Origin: Mycobacteriales bacterium
Lineage (GTDB): Bacteria; Actinomycetota; Actinomycetes; Mycobacteriales; CADCTP01
NCBI GenBank assembly: GCA_035995165.1
Contig: DASYKU010000090.1
Span: 1 to 58,579 of the forward strand
Length of the DNA stretch: 58,579 nt
Direction of reading: 5' to 3'
Under the pieces are notes generated by a model. It was not told where the DNA came from. It saw nothing but the letters and a program-made list of their open reading frames with translations, and searched no databases. Within the stretch, counting starts at the first letter, position 1. Each line of letters starts with the position of its first letter. Positions 52,444 to 58,579 of this stretch are shown here, piece by piece. A program made the translations under genes and the position numbers.

Positions 52444-52520
52444 CGCCGCCGGTCTGCCGGAGTCCGCTTGCACGACCTACGGCATACCTGCGTAACGCTC
52501 CTGCTCGACGCCGGGGGTGC
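52444..52520 (+). pseudogene. Tyrosine recombinase relic (C-terminal HxxR box)
   Basis: The 281-bp gap between the methyltransferase and GNAT genes contains a short stretch encoding LHDLRHTCVTLLLDAG, which is the HxLRHT active-site box of tyrosine recombinases (phage integrases). The frame continues on both sides without recognisable integrase sequence, and no start or tyrosine box is present. It is a fragment of a lost mobile-element integrase. Confidence 0.7.
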
Positions 52521-53036: not shown

Positions 53037-53462
53037 TCAGGCGCCGGTCAGGGCGGTAGCGAGGCCGAGCTCGGCGCAGGCTGCCAGCAGGTCCTTGTCG
53101 CCGCTGGCGACCACGAGGTCCGGAGCCTCGATCCTCTCGGCAGAGGCGCAGTGCACGGCGTCGTACCCGCGCAGCGCCTGACGGTCCACCAGCTCGGCGG
53201 CGCGGCGGGTCAGAACTTCGTCCACCTCGACGACGCGGAAGTCGCGCCAGAGGTCGCTCAGCGAGGCCGCGGCCGTCCGATGGTGCTCATCGGCGATCCG
53301 GCCCATCCGGCGGGCCCGGGCGAGTGCCGCGGCGGCCTCGAGGAACAGCAACCGTGAGGTCACCACCTCGTCGGCGGACTCCCACAGCTCCTGGCTCACC
53401 TCGGTGCCGGGCTCGGTGACGAGCAGCGGCACGAACGCCGAGGTGTCGAAGTAGACGATCAC
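53037..53462 (-). CDS. VapC-type PIN toxin
   Basis: This 141-residue PIN-domain ribonuclease shows all acidic residues: Asp6 (YFDTSAFV), Glu in LFLEAAAAL, Asp in LRGYDAVHC and Asp in SGDKDLL. VapC toxins cut tRNA or rRNA at specific sites when not bound by their antitoxin. ATGA at 53459-53462 couples it to the antitoxin gene upstream, the usual order. Confidence 0.92.
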   Translation of the reverse strand: MIVYFDTSAFVPLLVTEPGTEVSQELWESADEVVTSRLLFLEAAAALARARRMGRIADEHHRTAAASLSDLWRDFRVVEVDEVLTRRAAELVDRQALRGYDAVHCASAERIEAPDLVVASGDKDLLAACAELGLATALTGA

Positions 53463-53704
53463 CGTCGCTGCTCGGCCACGAGGTCGCTCACGGAGCCGTC
53501 GGCCGGCACCGGATGCGGCGTTCCCCGCCGGTGCCGCTGCGGCGGCCGTACGACGCCCTCGGCGACGAGCCGTTCCAGCGTGCTCGGACCGTCGACCGGA
53601 ACGATCCGCGCCACGGCCCGTCCGTGGTCGGTGATCGTGACGGTGTGCCCCTTGCGCACCTCAGCCAGGTGCTTGATCAGCGGATAGCACGCAAGGTGCA
53701 ACAT
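53459..53704 (-). CDS. Phd/YefM-type antitoxin with atypical N-terminus
   Basis: This 81-residue antitoxin of the VapC toxin that follows has a core HLAEVRKGHTVTITDHGRAVARIVPV that is typical of the Phd/VapB DNA-binding domain. The C-terminal half would wrap the toxin. The first eleven residues (MLHLACYPLIK) do not match the usual RELR-type start, so the DNA-binding N-terminus may be altered by a small rearrangement or the start misplaced. The gene sits 29 nt downstream of the DUF1801 gene on the same strand. Confidence 0.8.
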   Translation of the reverse strand: MLHLACYPLIKHLAEVRKGHTVTITDHGRAVARIVPVDGPSTLERLVAEGVVRPPQRHRRGTPHPVPADGSVSDLVAEQRR

Positions 53705-54456: not shown

Positions 54457-54514
54457 GCGACGGGGCACGGCCGATCTGCGACCGTCGGCTGAATCCCAGC
54501 TCAGAAGGGGTATG

Positions 54515-54645
54515 TGCGCCCGGCAGGACTCGAACCGGCGGCCAAATGCTTAGAAGCCATCCGGCGCCCGACGCCGTGCTGACCAGCCTTGTTGCAGGTC
54601 GCCGCCGAGCGAGATCGCCATAGTTATCTGCTCGCTCAGCGATCT
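54515..54645 (-). repeat. 131-bp tRNA-Arg(UCU) 3'-half repeat, copy A
   Basis: On the minus strand the last 42 bases (54556-54515) read as the anticodon loop CTTCTAA, variable region, T-arm and 3' acceptor strand of a tRNA-Arg(UCU). The T-stem has one mismatch (GCCGG/CCTGC). The upstream 89 bases are not tRNA-like but are shared with copies B and C. The matching 5' half (GCGCCCG acceptor and D-arm) is absent, so this is not a functional tRNA gene. By hand alignment it is about 87% identical to copy C over 131 bases without gaps. It directly follows the antitoxin A gene. Confidence 0.8.
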
Positions 54646-54648
54646 ACG

Positions 54649-54936
54649 TCAGCCTGCTTCGAGGTAGCGGTTGATGGCGTCGCGGACCCCTGCGGTGGTC
54701 TCGGTCGGCAATCCGCTGGATCGCCTCGTCGCCTGATCGTCCACGCGGAGGTCGACCCGCTTGGAGTGGCCGGCCCGTCCCGACAGCGAGGGCCGGTCCG
54801 CCTGCCTGCGGGTCAGGGTGGCTGGGTCGAAGCCGGCCTCGGCTTCCGCCGCCAAGCGCTGCTCGTAGTCGGGGTCGAGGCGGGTTCCCGCCGTGGCGAT
54901 CATCGGCTCGTCGGCTGGCCGCCCTACTGTCGCCAT
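54649..54936 (-). CDS. Ribbon-helix-helix antitoxin homologue, copy A, internally frame-garbled
   Basis: This 95-residue paralogue of the antitoxin at 55954-56253 has a near-identical N-terminal region (AGTRLDPDYEQRLAAEAEAGFDPATLTRR), KRVDLRVDD and the end RDAINRYLEA. The helix pair between them is replaced by unrelated residues. The DNA still encodes the expected IQRIADRDHRR in a shifted frame, followed by a deletion that restores the original frame. Two compensating indels therefore destroyed the core helices while leaving an open frame. GAGGAGG precedes the ATG. Its expected toxin partner is missing upstream, replaced by a VapBC pair. It is probably non-functional. Confidence 0.75.
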   Translation of the reverse strand: MATVGRPADEPMIATAGTRLDPDYEQRLAAEAEAGFDPATLTRRQADRPSLSGRAGHSKRVDLRVDDQATRRSSGLPTETTAGVRDAINRYLEAG

Positions 54937-55013
54937 CTCGTCGCCTCCTCGTACAGGTGGCGGTGGTGCCCGGCTGGTCGGGTCCAGGAGTCTTCGAGCG
55001 GTGTTACCGGCGC

Positions 55014-55409
55014 TCAGAGGTCGACGAGCGCTAGGTCGGTCTTGGTAAAATCTTCGCCGATATACAACAGGGGCTCGTCGGCGAGGCGACTGATGGCATA
55101 CGTAAGGCAGTCACCGAAATTCAGCGCAGCCGGGTGTCGGCCCTTGCCGTACTGCAAGTATGCGTCGACGGCGACAGCCCAATGCTCGTGGGAAAAATCG
55201 ATCTGTCGCATCCCGCTTTCTTGAATAAAGCGCGCGAGCAGGGTCTTACCCGGTATACCGAGGCGGGCGGCAAGCACTATTCCGGTCTCAACCAGTGTCG
55301 GCGTACCTATGCCTGGCGGTTGCTGCGCGGTGGCGATGCGATCGAGCAACGCGTCCCAGCCCGGTTCGCGCAGCAGAATAGCCACCACGGCTGAACTGTC
55401 GACGATCAC
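55014..55409 (-). CDS. VapC-type PIN toxin
   Basis: This 131-residue PIN-domain RNase has Asp4 (MIVDSSAVVAIL), Glu in PTLVETGIVL, Asp in ALNFGDCLTYA and Asp in YIGEDF, the complete catalytic set. It overlaps the antitoxin gene upstream by 4 nt (ATGA). Pair and length match the VapBC group whose antitoxin resembles Rv0623. It lies upstream of antitoxin A and repeat A on the same strand. Confidence 0.93.
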   Translation of the reverse strand: MIVDSSAVVAILLREPGWDALLDRIATAQQPPGIGTPTLVETGIVLAARLGIPGKTLLARFIQESGMRQIDFSHEHWAVAVDAYLQYGKGRHPAALNFGDCLTYAISRLADEPLLYIGEDFTKTDLALVDL

Positions 55410-55678
55410 ACGCCCTCCGGACCGTATCCGAGGATGTCCTCCCTTTCGGTCTTACTCAGGGACGTACCGAGAATCTCTGTCGGGATCTGAGGCCACGCCT
55501 CCTCGCTGAGGAATCGGCGTAGGCGCTGAGCGCGACCGGCGGTGGTGCGGGTCGCAGTAAGGCGCGCCTTACGCTCCTGCAGGGCGATGTTGATGGCGCG
55601 TGTCTTGGTCTCCGCAGCCAGCGTGGCCACCTCAGCGGCGAGCTGTTCCGTCTCGAGGTCCTTGATGTTCAGCGCCAT
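55406..55678 (-). CDS. VapB-type antitoxin
   Basis: This 90-residue antitoxin opens MALNIKDLETEQLAAEVATLA, the Rv0623/PSK-type DNA-binding region seen in many mycobacterial VapB proteins, and ends with a toxin-binding tail (SLSKTEREDILGYGPEGV). It precedes its VapC toxin with 4-nt overlap. A perfect 14-bp palindrome lies 20 nt upstream of the start and is the likely autoregulatory operator. Confidence 0.92.
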   Translation of the reverse strand: MALNIKDLETEQLAAEVATLAAETKTRAINIALQERKARLTATRTTAGRAQRLRRFLSEEAWPQIPTEILGTSLSKTEREDILGYGPEGV

Positions 55679-55698
55679 GGTGTAAGGGTATCATCGGA

Positions 55699-55712
55699 GG
55701 TGTACGTACACC
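55699..55712. promoter_or_regulatory. Palindromic operator of the vapBC pair
   Basis: GGTGTACGTACACC is a perfect 14-bp palindrome, 20 nt upstream of the vapB start. Its position and symmetry suit binding by the VapBC complex. From 55713 to 55804 no gene is recognised. Confidence 0.75.
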
Positions 55713-55819
55713 AAGACATGACTCAACGTGCGTGGACCAGTGGCCCGCTCGAGCAGCGGTCAGCGGGGAACGAACGCCGCGCCGCGCACTGATCCATACA
55801 TCCAGGTCAGGGCGGTGTG

Positions 55820-55950
55820 TGCGCCCGGCAGGACTCGAACCTGCGGCCAAGTGCTGAGAAGCCATCCTGCGCCTCGCGCCGTGCTGACCGGGCTCTTCGC
55901 AGGTCGACGCTGAGTGAAACGTCGATAGTTATGTGCTCGCTGATGGATCT
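55820..55950 (-). repeat. 131-bp tRNA-Arg(UCU) 3'-half repeat, copy B
   Basis: This has the same layout as copy A, with an intact T-arm (GCAGG-TTCGAGT-CCTGC) and acceptor strand. The anticodon loop carries one substitution (CTTCTCA). By hand alignment it is about 85% identical to copy C, again without length change. A further 15 or so bases to its left (GTCAGGGCGGTGTG) match copy C. It starts 3 nt downstream of the antitoxin B stop, in sense orientation. Confidence 0.82.
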
Positions 55951-55953
55951 TCG

Positions 55954-56253
55954 TCAGCTTGCTTCGAGGTAGCGGTTGATGGCGTCACGAACGACGTCGC
56001 TAACTCGGCGGTTGTCACGCTCCGCGATGCGCTGAATCGCTCCGTACGTCTCATCGTCGACCCGCAGGTCGACCCGCTTGGAGTGACCAGCTCGCCCGGA
56101 CAGCGAGGGCCGACCGGCGTGCCGGCGGGTGAGGGTGGACGGATCGAAGCCGATCTCGGCATCATCGGCCAGTCGTTGCTCGTAGTCCGCGTCGAGCCGC
56201 GTGCCAGCCTTGGTGACCTCCGGCTCTTGCACGGATCGCTTCACTGTCGCCAC
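55954..56253 (-). CDS. Ribbon-helix-helix antitoxin, copy B (intact)
   Basis: This 99-residue protein has a C-terminal ribbon-helix-helix (KRVDLRVDDETYGAIQRIAE, then RRVSDVVRDAINRYLEA), the dimeric DNA-binding fold of CopG/VapB-type antitoxins. The N-terminal half (RLDADYEQRLADDAEIGFDPSTLTRRHAGRPSLSG) would bind the toxin. GTG follows GAGGAGG. It overlaps the broken toxin gene upstream, giving a toxin-before-antitoxin order. With its toxin damaged it may persist as a free repressor or an anti-addiction remnant. Confidence 0.85.
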   Translation of the reverse strand: MATVKRSVQEPEVTKAGTRLDADYEQRLADDAEIGFDPSTLTRRHAGRPSLSGRAGHSKRVDLRVDDETYGAIQRIAERDNRRVSDVVRDAINRYLEAS

Positions 56254-56526
56254 TTCTTCGCCTCCTCGTCAGGTCGTGGTAGCTGGACCGCATCCGCATG
56301 GCGTGGATGACTCGGATTCGTCCATCGGCTAACTCGACCCCGACAACCTCCAGTGCGGTGCCGGTGGCGTCGTCACCGAGGAACAGCAGCGCCTCGTCAG
56401 GCCTTGCCGGAGGGGCGGCCGGCTGGGCGAAGAACAGCCCGGCATTGTCGAGGACGTGGCGCACCTGGTCGCGGGACACCCGATGCTTGCGCGCACCGGC
56501 GTCCACGACAACCCGGAGAAGTCCAC
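56162..56526 (-). pseudogene. Small BrnT-like toxin partner of antitoxin B, frameshifted
   Basis: The protein in frame from about 56513 reads ARKHRVSRDQVRHVLDN, then LLFLGDDATGTALEVVGVEL and IRVIHAMRMRSSYHDL. This is the pattern of small BrnT/DUF4258-like toxins that pair with this antitoxin type. The family-typical start MDFSG is present at 56526 (GTG) but in another frame: one extra G in the GGG run near 56513 would join them. The start is leaderless behind a good promoter, so the gene was probably once functional. The reading frame also runs 92 nt into antitoxin B, suggesting a second change at the 3' end. A sequencing error is possible. Confidence 0.6.
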
Positions 56527-56532
56527 GGAGGT

Positions 56533-56561
56533 ATTATGTCGGACACAACCGGCGGGAGCAA
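56533..56561 (-). promoter_or_regulatory. Promoter of the toxin B/antitoxin B unit
   Basis: Minus-strand TTGCTC (56561-56556) and CATAAT (56538-56533) are spaced by 17 bp and the GTG at 56526 follows 6 nt later. This is one of the best consensus promoters in the window and implies leaderless expression. Confidence 0.6.
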
Positions 56562-56583
56562 CCGGCGGCGCGCGATCTGGGAC

Positions 56584-57756
56584 TCACACTCTGCAGGCGG
56601 GGCAAAGCCGCGGCTTGCGTCCGCGGGTCACCGCCCGCTCCCAGTGCGTCCCACAATTCTCACAGGTCAGAGTCTCTATAGCCGCCCGCGGTGCAGTATC
56701 CCGTCCGACGCTGCTTGTCGTGGTACGGGCGACCGGGCCTGCCAGTTTGGCTGAGTAGGCGGACACGCGCTTTCTCAGGTCTTCGACCGCGTCCGGCCGG
56801 GCCACGTCTTCGCCGTAGAGCGCCAAGCCCCGCTGTGACCAGCGTAGAGCCTCGGTCCAGTTCTTCGCCTTCTGCTGCCGGACTGCCATCTGGCGGTAAG
56901 TGTCCAGCAGGGGAATTACGCCGAACTTGGCCAGCAGTGACTCTCGGATGCCATCCATCTCCATATCGTGTAACGAACAGGCCTGGTCGTAGTCATCGAG
57001 GGCCGATGTGAAGACCTCTCGGGACTTGTACAGTCGTTCCTCAAGTTCGCAGTACATGAAGTGTCGGTCTATCGGATCCGGATCATCCTTCAACAGGTCA
57101 CGCAGTCGCGCGATAGATGCGACGTTGTCGCTTGGGAGGCTGCTCAACCACGACAGATCGTAAGAGTCGTCGGCTTCGTCGGTGAGAATGGCCTCGGTGA
57201 GTCCGGTCATGATGTTGCCGCGAAGCGTCCATGGCGCGGGCGGAACCACTACTTCGACGTCGAAGTCAGCGGGAGTGCAGTAGAGCCACACTCCTAGAAA
57301 GCCGAGTCGCCCGTCCTCGCGAAGTCCTCCGCCGGTCACAACTCCGTTCAACGCAACGTGAGCGCGATTCTCCTCGTACAGCTTTATTAGGCCAGCCCGA
57401 TAAGCCTGCGCGTCCTCGCGGCAGAAGTAGCCGACCTTACGGCCATCTATCCACACCGATATTGCATTGGGGTCATAGGGATTATCAGGCTCGGTTGCGA
57501 CGACCGCGAGGACATCGACTCGTACTCGTTCACTGTTCTGTCCGCCCACCACTCGCCATAGCGCCTCTTGATAGTTGCTCTCGCCCACGATCTCAAGGTC
57601 GTGACTTCCAGCGTGAACCACGTGGCGGTCAAAATAGGTGATCAAGTCCGTCCAACTCCGCGATGCCTGCCGGGCTTGAACGGCGACCCGTTCCTCACCC
57701 TCGCCGAAGAGCCGTCGCAGTATCCCCATCCCGCCATCATGGCTGTCGACGGACAC
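56584..57756 (-). CDS. HIRAN-domain protein with C-terminal zinc ribbon
   Basis: This 390-residue protein has a HIRAN-like domain at about residues 53-125 (LEIVGESNYQEALWRVVGG, then ATEPDNPYDPNAISVWIDG and KVGYFCREDA). HIRAN domains bind DNA ends or single strands in repair helicases and also occur alone in bacteria. An alpha-helical, TPR-like middle (about 200-330) and a zinc ribbon with CENC and CPAC pairs (about 365-388) follow. Codon use is distinctly less GC-rich than in the core genes, a sign of transfer. Start GTG at 57756 or ATG at 57729. It stands alone between TA units B and C and could be a defence or DNA-end-sensing protein; function unknown. Confidence 0.75.
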   Translation of the reverse strand: MSVDSHDGGMGILRRLFGEGEERVAVQARQASRSWTDLITYFDRHVVHAGSHDLEIVGESNYQEALWRVVGGQNSERVRVDVLAVVATEPDNPYDPNAISVWIDGRKVGYFCREDAQAYRAGLIKLYEENRAHVALNGVVTGGGLREDGRLGFLGVWLYCTPADFDVEVVVPPAPWTLRGNIMTGLTEAILTDEADDSYDLSWLSSLPSDNVASIARLRDLLKDDPDPIDRHFMYCELEERLYKSREVFTSALDDYDQACSLHDMEMDGIRESLLAKFGVIPLLDTYRQMAVRQQKAKNWTEALRWSQRGLALYGEDVARPDAVEDLRKRVSAYSAKLAGPVARTTTSSVGRDTAPRAAIETLTCENCGTHWERAVTRGRKPRLCPACRV

Positions 57757-57899
57757 TCATGTCCCAGTTTTGTCACAACGTCGATCCGTTGATCGGGCTT
57801 GCCAAAGACGCTTGTCGCGATCAGTGGGTCGGTCACGGAGCGCGGTGCGACGGGCCGACCCGCGCGACCAGCGAAAGGATGCTGGTCAGGGGCGGTGTG

Positions 57900-58030
57900 T
57901 GCGCCCGGCAGGACTCGAACCTGCGGCCAAGTGCTTAGAAGCCATCCGGCGCCCGGCGCCGTGCTGACCTGTGTGCGCGCAGGTCGCGGCTGAGCGAGAT
58001 GTCGATAGTTATCTGCTCGGTAAGCGATCT
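57900..58030 (-). repeat. 131-bp tRNA-Arg(UCU) 3'-half repeat, copy C
   Basis: This is the best-preserved copy: anticodon loop CTTCTAA (57941-57935), intact T-arm and 3' acceptor strand CGGGCGCA, then 89 upstream bases shared with A and B, including GATAGTTATCTGCTCG. The 5' half of the tRNA is missing. It starts 10 nt downstream of the VapC stop at 58041, in sense orientation, and has the left flank GTCAGGGGCGGTGTG in common with copy B. Confidence 0.83.
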
Positions 58031-58040
58031 TCCGATCGGC

Positions 58041-58454
58041 TCAGGTCGTCGTCAGCCGCTCGATCGGTTGGCCGGTGACATCTGCGATGATCTCGAAGTC
58101 CTTGTCGAGGTGCAGCACGGTCAGGCCGGCGAGTTCGGCCGTAGCGGCGATGATCAGGTCCGGAATCGACGGAGCCCGGTGTTGCCCCCGATCGGCGAGC
58201 AGTGTCAGCACTTCGACCGATCGGTCTTCGATCGCGGGTGTCTGGTATTCGACCGGCATGGAGGACAGCGGCGGCCGGCGCAGCCCGACCCGCAGGTCTG
58301 GGCCCGACCGGACTGAGTAGCCGATCTCGAGCCGGGTGATGGTGGCGATCCGGACGAGGCCGCGCTCGATGCGGGCGGCCCAGTCGGCGGCGTCCGGGCT
58401 CCCGGCGAGGCGGACCAGCGCTGACTTGTCGATCAGCCAGGACGTCAGTGCCAC
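58041..58454 (-). CDS. VapC-type PIN toxin
   Basis: This 137-residue PIN-domain RNase has Asp9 in [11 protein letters not shown], Glu in TRLEIGYS, Asp in [12 protein letters not shown] and Asp in LDKDFEII. The GTG start overlaps the antitoxin stop by 10 nt. It is unrelated in detail to the other two VapC proteins here, so the three TA units are different acquisitions. Its transcript would run straight into repeat C. Confidence 0.93.
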
Positions 58455-58579
58455 GCCTGGTCCATGACATCGGGGTCGGCCAGGTCCGCGGTGAGCTCGG
58501 CGAGTCGGGCCAGATCGGACACCGCGACGGAGGAGCCGGACACCTCGGCGTCCTGGGCGAGCCGGCGGCGCACGTACTC
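58445..58579 (-). CDS. VapB-type antitoxin, truncated by window edge
   Basis: Only the C-terminal 44 residues are in the window, ending PDVMDQAWH. They continue in frame to the last base, so the start lies beyond the window. Position directly upstream of, and overlapping, the VapC gene identifies it as the antitoxin; the visible tail is the toxin-binding part and does not show the DNA-binding family. Confidence 0.7.

Follow-up and report, generated by a model that had tools for sequence, protein, structure and literature searches.

A rare actinobacterial HIRAN protein with a TPR-like middle and an Fpg-type finger, encoded in a tRNA-Arg cassette array

The DNA analysed here (the window, a stretch of 58,579 nucleotides from a Mycobacteriales bacterium, referred to below as contig C90) encodes, inside a small cassette bounded by tRNA-Arg(TCT) repeats, a protein of the HIRAN type in which a HIRAN domain is joined to a TPR-like helical middle and a C-terminal finger of the Fpg type. 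The HIRAN domain is itself known and it is the domain combination that is new, no description of a HIRAN, TPR and zinc finger architecture having been found in the literature searched, although an earlier mention of related stand-alone forms is possible (Iyer 2006 HIRAN paper). In the human fork remodeller HLTF, HIRAN is the part that deals with DNA ends; the HIRAN protein of the window is small, has no helicase and carries a second module that probably binds DNA, and the loci of its family hint at partners.

Our preferred reading, held tentatively and at somewhat below even confidence, is that the protein is an adaptor for DNA structures, without catalytic activity of its own, which integrative elements carry as cargo and which is likely used in sensing abnormal or incoming DNA for defence or in conflict between elements. 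The analysis establishes the domain make-up of the protein, the mobile setting of its gene, and a family that is rare, patchily spread and prone to decay. We infer DNA binding, partner recruitment and a defence role as follows: the HIRAN domain would hold single-stranded DNA or a 3' end, the finger would grip nearby duplex, and the TPR middle would bring to the bound DNA a partner, which might be a helicase, nuclease or SMC machine either of the host or encoded alongside. An adaptor is the simplest reading because the protein has no enzyme part but does have a docking middle and, besides HIRAN, another module likely to act on DNA. Were ends sensed for defence machines, the family would represent a shared sensor; were it a repair adaptor, it would represent a bacterial counterpart of the fork-recognition step.

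Gene and domain architecture

The open reading frame at 56584-57756 on the minus strand is uninterrupted and spans 390 codons if begun at GTG. Because homologues open with MGLLxRL or similar, translation probably starts at the ATG at 57729 (381 aa) rather than at the GTG at 57756 (390 aa). The GC content is 60.6% in the gene (GC3 69.1%) and 62.8% in the cassette, compared with 74.4% across the window's first 50 kb, in agreement with the lower-GC DNA noted in the preliminary description. One copy is present in its own genome, and the gene is absent from the one other genome of the host's taxonomic family that was compared, which belongs to the same genus. Coordinates of the gene, its domains and the surrounding features are collected in Table 1.

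Table 1. Features of the HIRAN-TPR-finger gene and of the surrounding array (window positions)
Feature	Position	Strand	Basis or remark
HIRAN-TPR-zinc finger gene	56584..57729	minus	381 aa from ATG; alternative GTG start at 57756
HIRAN domain, residues about 36-157	57259..57624	minus	Pfam, family profile, AlphaFold models, fold comparison
TPR-like helical middle, residues about 188-332	56734..57168	minus	model and fold comparison
C-terminal finger C356-x2-C-x16-C-x2-C379 with invariant GR, Fpg/IleRS type	56593..56664	minus	profile, alignment
tRNA-Arg(TCT) 3' fragment, one cassette boundary	57900..57941	minus	direct repeat
tRNA-Arg(TCT) 3' fragment, other cassette boundary	55820..55861	minus	direct repeat
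Further tRNA-Arg(TCT) 3' fragment of array	54515..54556	minus	direct repeat
BrnT-like toxin ORF	56162..56506	minus	weak Pfam match, E 0.014, below cut-off; repeat of C56:15486-16226
Ribbon-helix-helix (RHH) antitoxin partner of BrnT-like toxin	55954..56253	minus	Pfam RHH_1; 3 copies in genome
VapB-type antitoxin (PSK_trans_fac)	55406..55678	minus	Pfam
PIN toxin of VapBC pair, neighbouring cassette	55014..55409	minus	Pfam
Decayed RHH antitoxin copy without toxin	54649..54936	minus	repeat comparison
Phd/YefM-type antitoxin	53459..53704	minus	Pfam E 6.4e-6, just below cut-off
PIN toxin	53037..53462	minus	Pfam
PIN toxin, antitoxin cut by contig end	58041..58454	minus	Pfam

The window protein matched Pfam PF08797 at E 8.5e-5 and 22.7 bits, just below the cut-off of 24.7, which was passed by the relatives L027 (33.6 bits) and L085 (27.4 bits). 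A phmmer search with the window protein reached lp_0118 (3k2y) and HLTF at E 0.008-0.14, and an eight-member family profile searched against the PDB matched HLTF HIRAN structures at E 1.1e-5 and 3k2y at E 5.9e-5, with 32 sequences above the first unrelated one, namely six HIRAN sequences and 26 MutM/Fpg sequences matched through the finger. The full-length AlphaFold model (pLDDT 73, pTM 0.44) matched HLTF HIRAN and 3k2y chains with Foldseek probabilities of 0.89-1.0, and for a HIRAN-only model (pLDDT 83.5, pTM 0.76) VIA ranks 1-9 were all HIRAN structures (Z 8.5 to 5.6; 3k2y 8.5, HLTF 7.3-5.7, Rad5 5.8 and 5.6), the next row being unrelated at Z 4.3. The Foldseek superpositions on HIRAN structures were loose (TM about 0.4-0.56), and the assignment therefore rests on rank, sequence and motif jointly. 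Sequence and AlphaFold models thus support the presence of a HIRAN fold; structure prediction without that fold, the outcome named in advance as contrary to the proposed HIRAN domain, did not occur.

The closest structure was that of lp_0118 (rmsd 2.8, 95 aligned), a stand-alone bacterial HIRAN that is also helicase-free but, like small HIRAN ORFs such as L033, is without the TPR middle and finger of the window protein. It had been proposed that HIRAN domains are mostly fused to helicases or nucleases, which did not hold for the other HIRAN ORFs found here, these being, as judged by eye, short or joined to other parts.

According to PMC4666394, a dinucleotide sits in a cavity of the HLTF HIRAN domain that is flanked by Y72 and Y93; binding of single-stranded DNA by this domain is described in PMC4666394 and PMC7804152, the latter reporting it as common to Rad5 HIRAN too, while prokaryotic HIRAN domains are termed uncharacterised in PMC11090510. 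The family shares with HLTF and Rad5 the predicted HIRAN fold and an invariant NxxD motif, the N and D of NPYD being unchanged in 12 of 12 aligned HIRAN domains. It differs from them in the tyrosines of the cavity: the stacking Tyr72 of HLTF has no clear equivalent, and the position of Tyr93 is Tyr in 4 of 8 aligned rows and Tyr, His or Cys across the family (numbering of HLTF pocket residues beyond Y72/Y93 was deduced by counting). As the Asn and Asp never vary but the Tyr93 position does, the pocket for single-stranded DNA or a 3' end appears to be conserved only in part.

In the full-length model, residues about 188-332 form TPR-like helical hairpins that match TPR domains with Z up to 12.1, the best match being an APC/C TPR subunit (residues about 190-329, rmsd 2.7, 123 aligned), and TPR sequence profiles were weak (PF13424 at E 0.22 for the window protein, TPR_2 at E 0.31 for L026). 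Helical repeats inflate Z and give generic values, so that the evidence for the TPR-like middle, likewise suggested in the preliminary description, is moderate. The 14-3-3, SMYD3 and BamD rows of the VIA output for this region were generic helical-repeat matches and were not used for function.

The two-CxxC finger is present as first described, with C356, C359, C376 and C379 in CxxC-x16-CxxC spacing and a G-R pair invariant in 7 of 7 aligned rows. The first PDB matches of this part of the family profile were Fpg/MutM glycosylases (26 sequences, best 1ee8, E 0.034), and against PF06827 (zf-FPG_IleRS, cut-off 21.3 bits) the window protein scored 15 bits and L026 11.6, both below, and L027 from Kribbella 26.2, above. 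The MutM-like ORFs L075 and L114 have an equal 16-residue spacing with GR at the equal place, and the difference from Fpg/MutM is that the window protein is without the glycosylase domain. In a finger search of 394 genomes, 27 matched at E 0.01; the first six by score resemble this finger, and the remainder, judged on part of them, look like MutM or chance. A separate ORF in genome G601 (L073:1-1623), an exonuclease (RNase_T), has two copies of a CxxC-x16-CxxC finger of GRK type.

In the window protein, Pfam gave no catalytic domain and no match to an SNF2 helicase or RING domain, both of which distinguish HLTF and Rad5, and Pfam and NCBIfam gave no HipA/HipS-like or kinase domain, the NCBIfam search yielding nothing useful. 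No PADLOC system component was matched by the window protein (best E 0.012).

Distribution and decay of the family

A scan of GTDB-representative genomes returned 38 loci, of which seven belong to the HIRAN-TPR-finger family and 31 match at the HIRAN level only. The seven are all actinobacterial by record title (Planotetraspora, Kribbella, Jiangella, and MAGs of Frankiaceae, Ilumatobacter, Pseudonocardia and Acidimicrobiales), and genome searches added three more, in G060 (a second species of the Jiangella genus), G600 and G433. Among these 10 loci besides the window, five are intact and full-length (L026, L027, L028, L029 and L070), one is cut by a contig end (L030) and four are damaged, by an internal deletion removing most of HIRAN in G060, by the absence of HIRAN in G433, by an insertion beside a transposase ORF (IS66-like by eye) in the Pseudonocardia MAG and by a frameshift in the Acidimicrobiales MAG. 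Ribbon-only pieces were found in G321 and G221.

So many copies broken by insertion, frameshift and deletion could be expected if the gene were selfish or decaying cargo from which the host now gains nothing. We consider this improbable, as the window ORF is intact, all three domains are kept in the window protein and in the five other intact members, and the four of these that were measured are 44-55% identical to the window protein. The intact relatives all lie in the same phylum.

The gene is accessory, rare and patchy rather than core. Within the class the family was found in 4 of 394 genomes, own included (20 with any match), within the phylum a strong match was found in 3 of 396, own included (7 with any match), and within the Jiangella genus it occurs in 2 of 12 species (among 22 genomes of the order), so that homologues are not universally core, as the island association first proposed would have it. 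No family relative was found in viral contigs; plasmid and phage collections gave only HIRAN-level matches over at most 31% of the query (one plasmid record, two phage records), and PHROGs gave HIRAN-level and weak ribbon matches, all to families of unknown function. In genome G402 (L072:1567-3024), a HIRAN protein (HIRAN E 4.7e-9) has a helical part remotely matching the TPR middle (E 1e-13), which by sequence suggests a wider HIRAN-TPR group.

The tRNA-Arg(TCT) cassette array

An intact tRNA-Arg(TCT) lies at C56:14456-14529 of the same genome, and four 3' fragments of it, with 0 to 3 mismatches, form direct repeats, one at C56:16181-16222 and three in the window, with 0 matches for a reversed-pattern control. 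The sequence immediately ahead of the shared core is alike in all four. The integration scars of the preliminary description are thereby accounted for, and the HIRAN gene lies inside a 2.08-kb cassette between the fragments at 57900-57941 and 55820-55861. Pfam matches to PIN, RHH_1 and PSK_trans_fac nearby agree with its placement among toxin-antitoxin (TA) units. The BrnT-like/RHH pair stands ahead of the fragments at C56 and at 55820, only its RHH part ahead of that at 54515 and only a short tail ahead of that at 57900. This is the pattern that small related elements leave when they integrate repeatedly at a single tRNA, and the cassette has retained no integrase: the ORF list and Pfam gave no integrase-like ORF between its tRNA repeats, and a possible integrase remnant at 52468 (by eye), outside the cassette, had no Pfam match.

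The array as a whole covers C56:14456-17181 and window positions 54509-58579, with cassette spacings of 1.3 and 2.1 kb in the window. The two contigs probably flank one gap; over 172 nt their ends are 93% alike, not identical. In the one same-genus genome compared for an empty site, neither the tRNA pattern nor a gene left of the array was matched.

Placement between att-like repeats is one of two observations in favour of a mobility factor that helps the element to excise or integrate, the other being that an ORF read by eye as a tyrosine integrase lies some 4 kb away from the family gene in the Frankiaceae MAG. The other cassettes of the same array are without the gene, however, and most relatives are without a nearby integrase as far as seen, which makes such a role very improbable.

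Least probable of all is that the protein regulates, or is an antitoxin to, the toxin next to it, whose ORF starts 77 nt downstream of the HIRAN gene. HIRAN is present in putative antitoxins of Hip systems as reported in PMC8262856, where such a role is proposed for HipN, a HipS-HIRAN protein. The window protein resembles HipN and HipL (kinase-HIRAN) in having HIRAN in a TA or defence setting but differs in that no HipS-like or kinase domain, nor any HipA match, was found in it. The toxin, moreover, has its own RHH partner, and the block of toxin, antitoxin and att recurs without the HIRAN gene, its similarity beginning at 56553, 30 nt past the HIRAN stop. A 13-nt sequence between the HIRAN gene and the toxin is common to both copies of this block, which argues for a toxin with its own promoter.

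A general location of the RHH unit at tRNA ends was considered and rejected, an intact tRNA being present at 3 of 19 loci outside its own genome (L137-L155), one of which (L153) has a tRNA direct repeat. In that genome, another of the class, a tRNA-Arg(ccg) and a 93% direct repeat 0.7 kb on (L153:489-590 and 1246-1340) lie near an RHH antitoxin relative.

Neighbourhoods of the relatives and possible roles

In genome G433 (L086:8186-15836), a Wadjet type III operon of JetD, JetC, JetB-like and JetA genes converges on the HIRAN-less copy at a distance of 25 nt, with PADLOC matches to JetC3 (E 1.1e-190), JetA3 (3.6e-105) and JetD3 (9.6e-71). Upstream of the Planotetraspora gene, at about 0.4 kb, is the end of a helicase gene with matches to PDC-M23B (2e-61) and HamB (7.6e-54); the ORF ahead of this helicase matched no family, and the contig edge carries an IS3-like pair (by eye). 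The Acidimicrobiales copy neighbours a UvrD-type helicase matching GajB/RTasHel models, the Frankiaceae copy Phd and ParE-like genes, and the Pseudonocardia copy tRNA-Arg(ccg) and an HTH/Gp49 pair; among neighbours of the Ilumatobacter copy none was recognised. The Kribbella, Jiangella and G600 copies lie in ordinary chromosome, that of Jiangella near gyrA and tRNA-Ile/Ala.

For comparison, 117 neighbouring proteins from 10 loci were set against 113 control proteins encoded in 12 stretches taken from nine of these genomes; the genome of the window contributed no control, and two short stretches were dropped. Genes were called by a simple script, spurious ORFs included. Among the families listed, which were the best 25 of 89 and of 49 (PADLOC) and of 125 and of 177 (Pfam), TA families (PIN 3, Phd 2) appeared on the neighbour side only, four of the five from the window itself, and the control stretches held transposases, a relaxase and generic PADLOC matches. 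We claim no significant enrichment of defence genes: the defence and TA neighbours are striking at a few loci, and ten loci are too few for proof. Because three relatives lie in ordinary chromosome, the link of the family to defence is merely suggestive. The earlier view that this context is typical of anti-phage proteins therefore stands in part, with Wadjet III, the HamB-like helicase and the UvrD-type helicase each at one of 10 neighbourhoods, and is weakened by those three loci and by the PADLOC matches of the control.

Bacterial HIRANs in Hip kinase systems have been proposed to read phage DNA ends (PMC8262856), and HIRAN-HipA-diDNase clusters of Gram-positive islands are reported in PMC11706625. 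The latter are like the window locus in placing HIRAN in actinobacterial islands with defence links, and unlike it in that the genes scanned here included none recognisable as HipA or diDNase. A bolder reading would make the family a new stand-alone group of DNA-end sensors of actinobacterial defence islands, in which a two-handed HIRAN and Fpg-type finger would recognise forks or free ends in the DNA of invading plasmids or phages, pass them through the TPR middle to whichever effector lies nearby (for example the SMC machine of Wadjet or a helicase like that of Hachiman), and travel in minimal tRNA-bounded cassettes; in this specific form we regard it as doubtful.

Better placed, though still unlikely, is a horizontally shared genome-maintenance accessory that would read stalled forks or damaged host ends and aid a repair nuclease or helicase, the island being a mere route of spread. 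HIRAN and Fpg-type fingers are repair-type modules, in G600 a 5'-3' exonuclease gene follows 75 nt downstream of the family copy and in the same orientation, the exonuclease ORF of G601 has the finger twice, and three loci are chromosomal. The exonuclease neighbour is nevertheless found at one locus only, the family is rare and unevenly spread, damage is present at 4 of the 10 other loci, and the window copy sits within an array of mobile cassettes.

In favour of the DNA-structure adaptor we counted the predicted HIRAN fold, the Fpg-type finger, the TPR-type middle, the lack of a catalytic domain in Pfam, the accessory and frequently damaged state of the gene, the cassette between tRNA-Arg repeats, and the adjacent Wadjet III operon in G433 and HamB/PDC-M23B-like helicase in Planotetraspora. 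Against it we counted that the defence neighbours differ between loci and that Wadjet III adjoins a HIRAN-less copy, together with the chromosomal setting of three copies, the PADLOC matches in the control and the retention of Tyr at the Tyr93 position in only half of the aligned rows.

Near the Pseudonocardia copy (L087:7563-10781) there are large genes resembling those of Tc toxin complexes, and Pfam TcA_TcB_BD was matched once among the neighbours.
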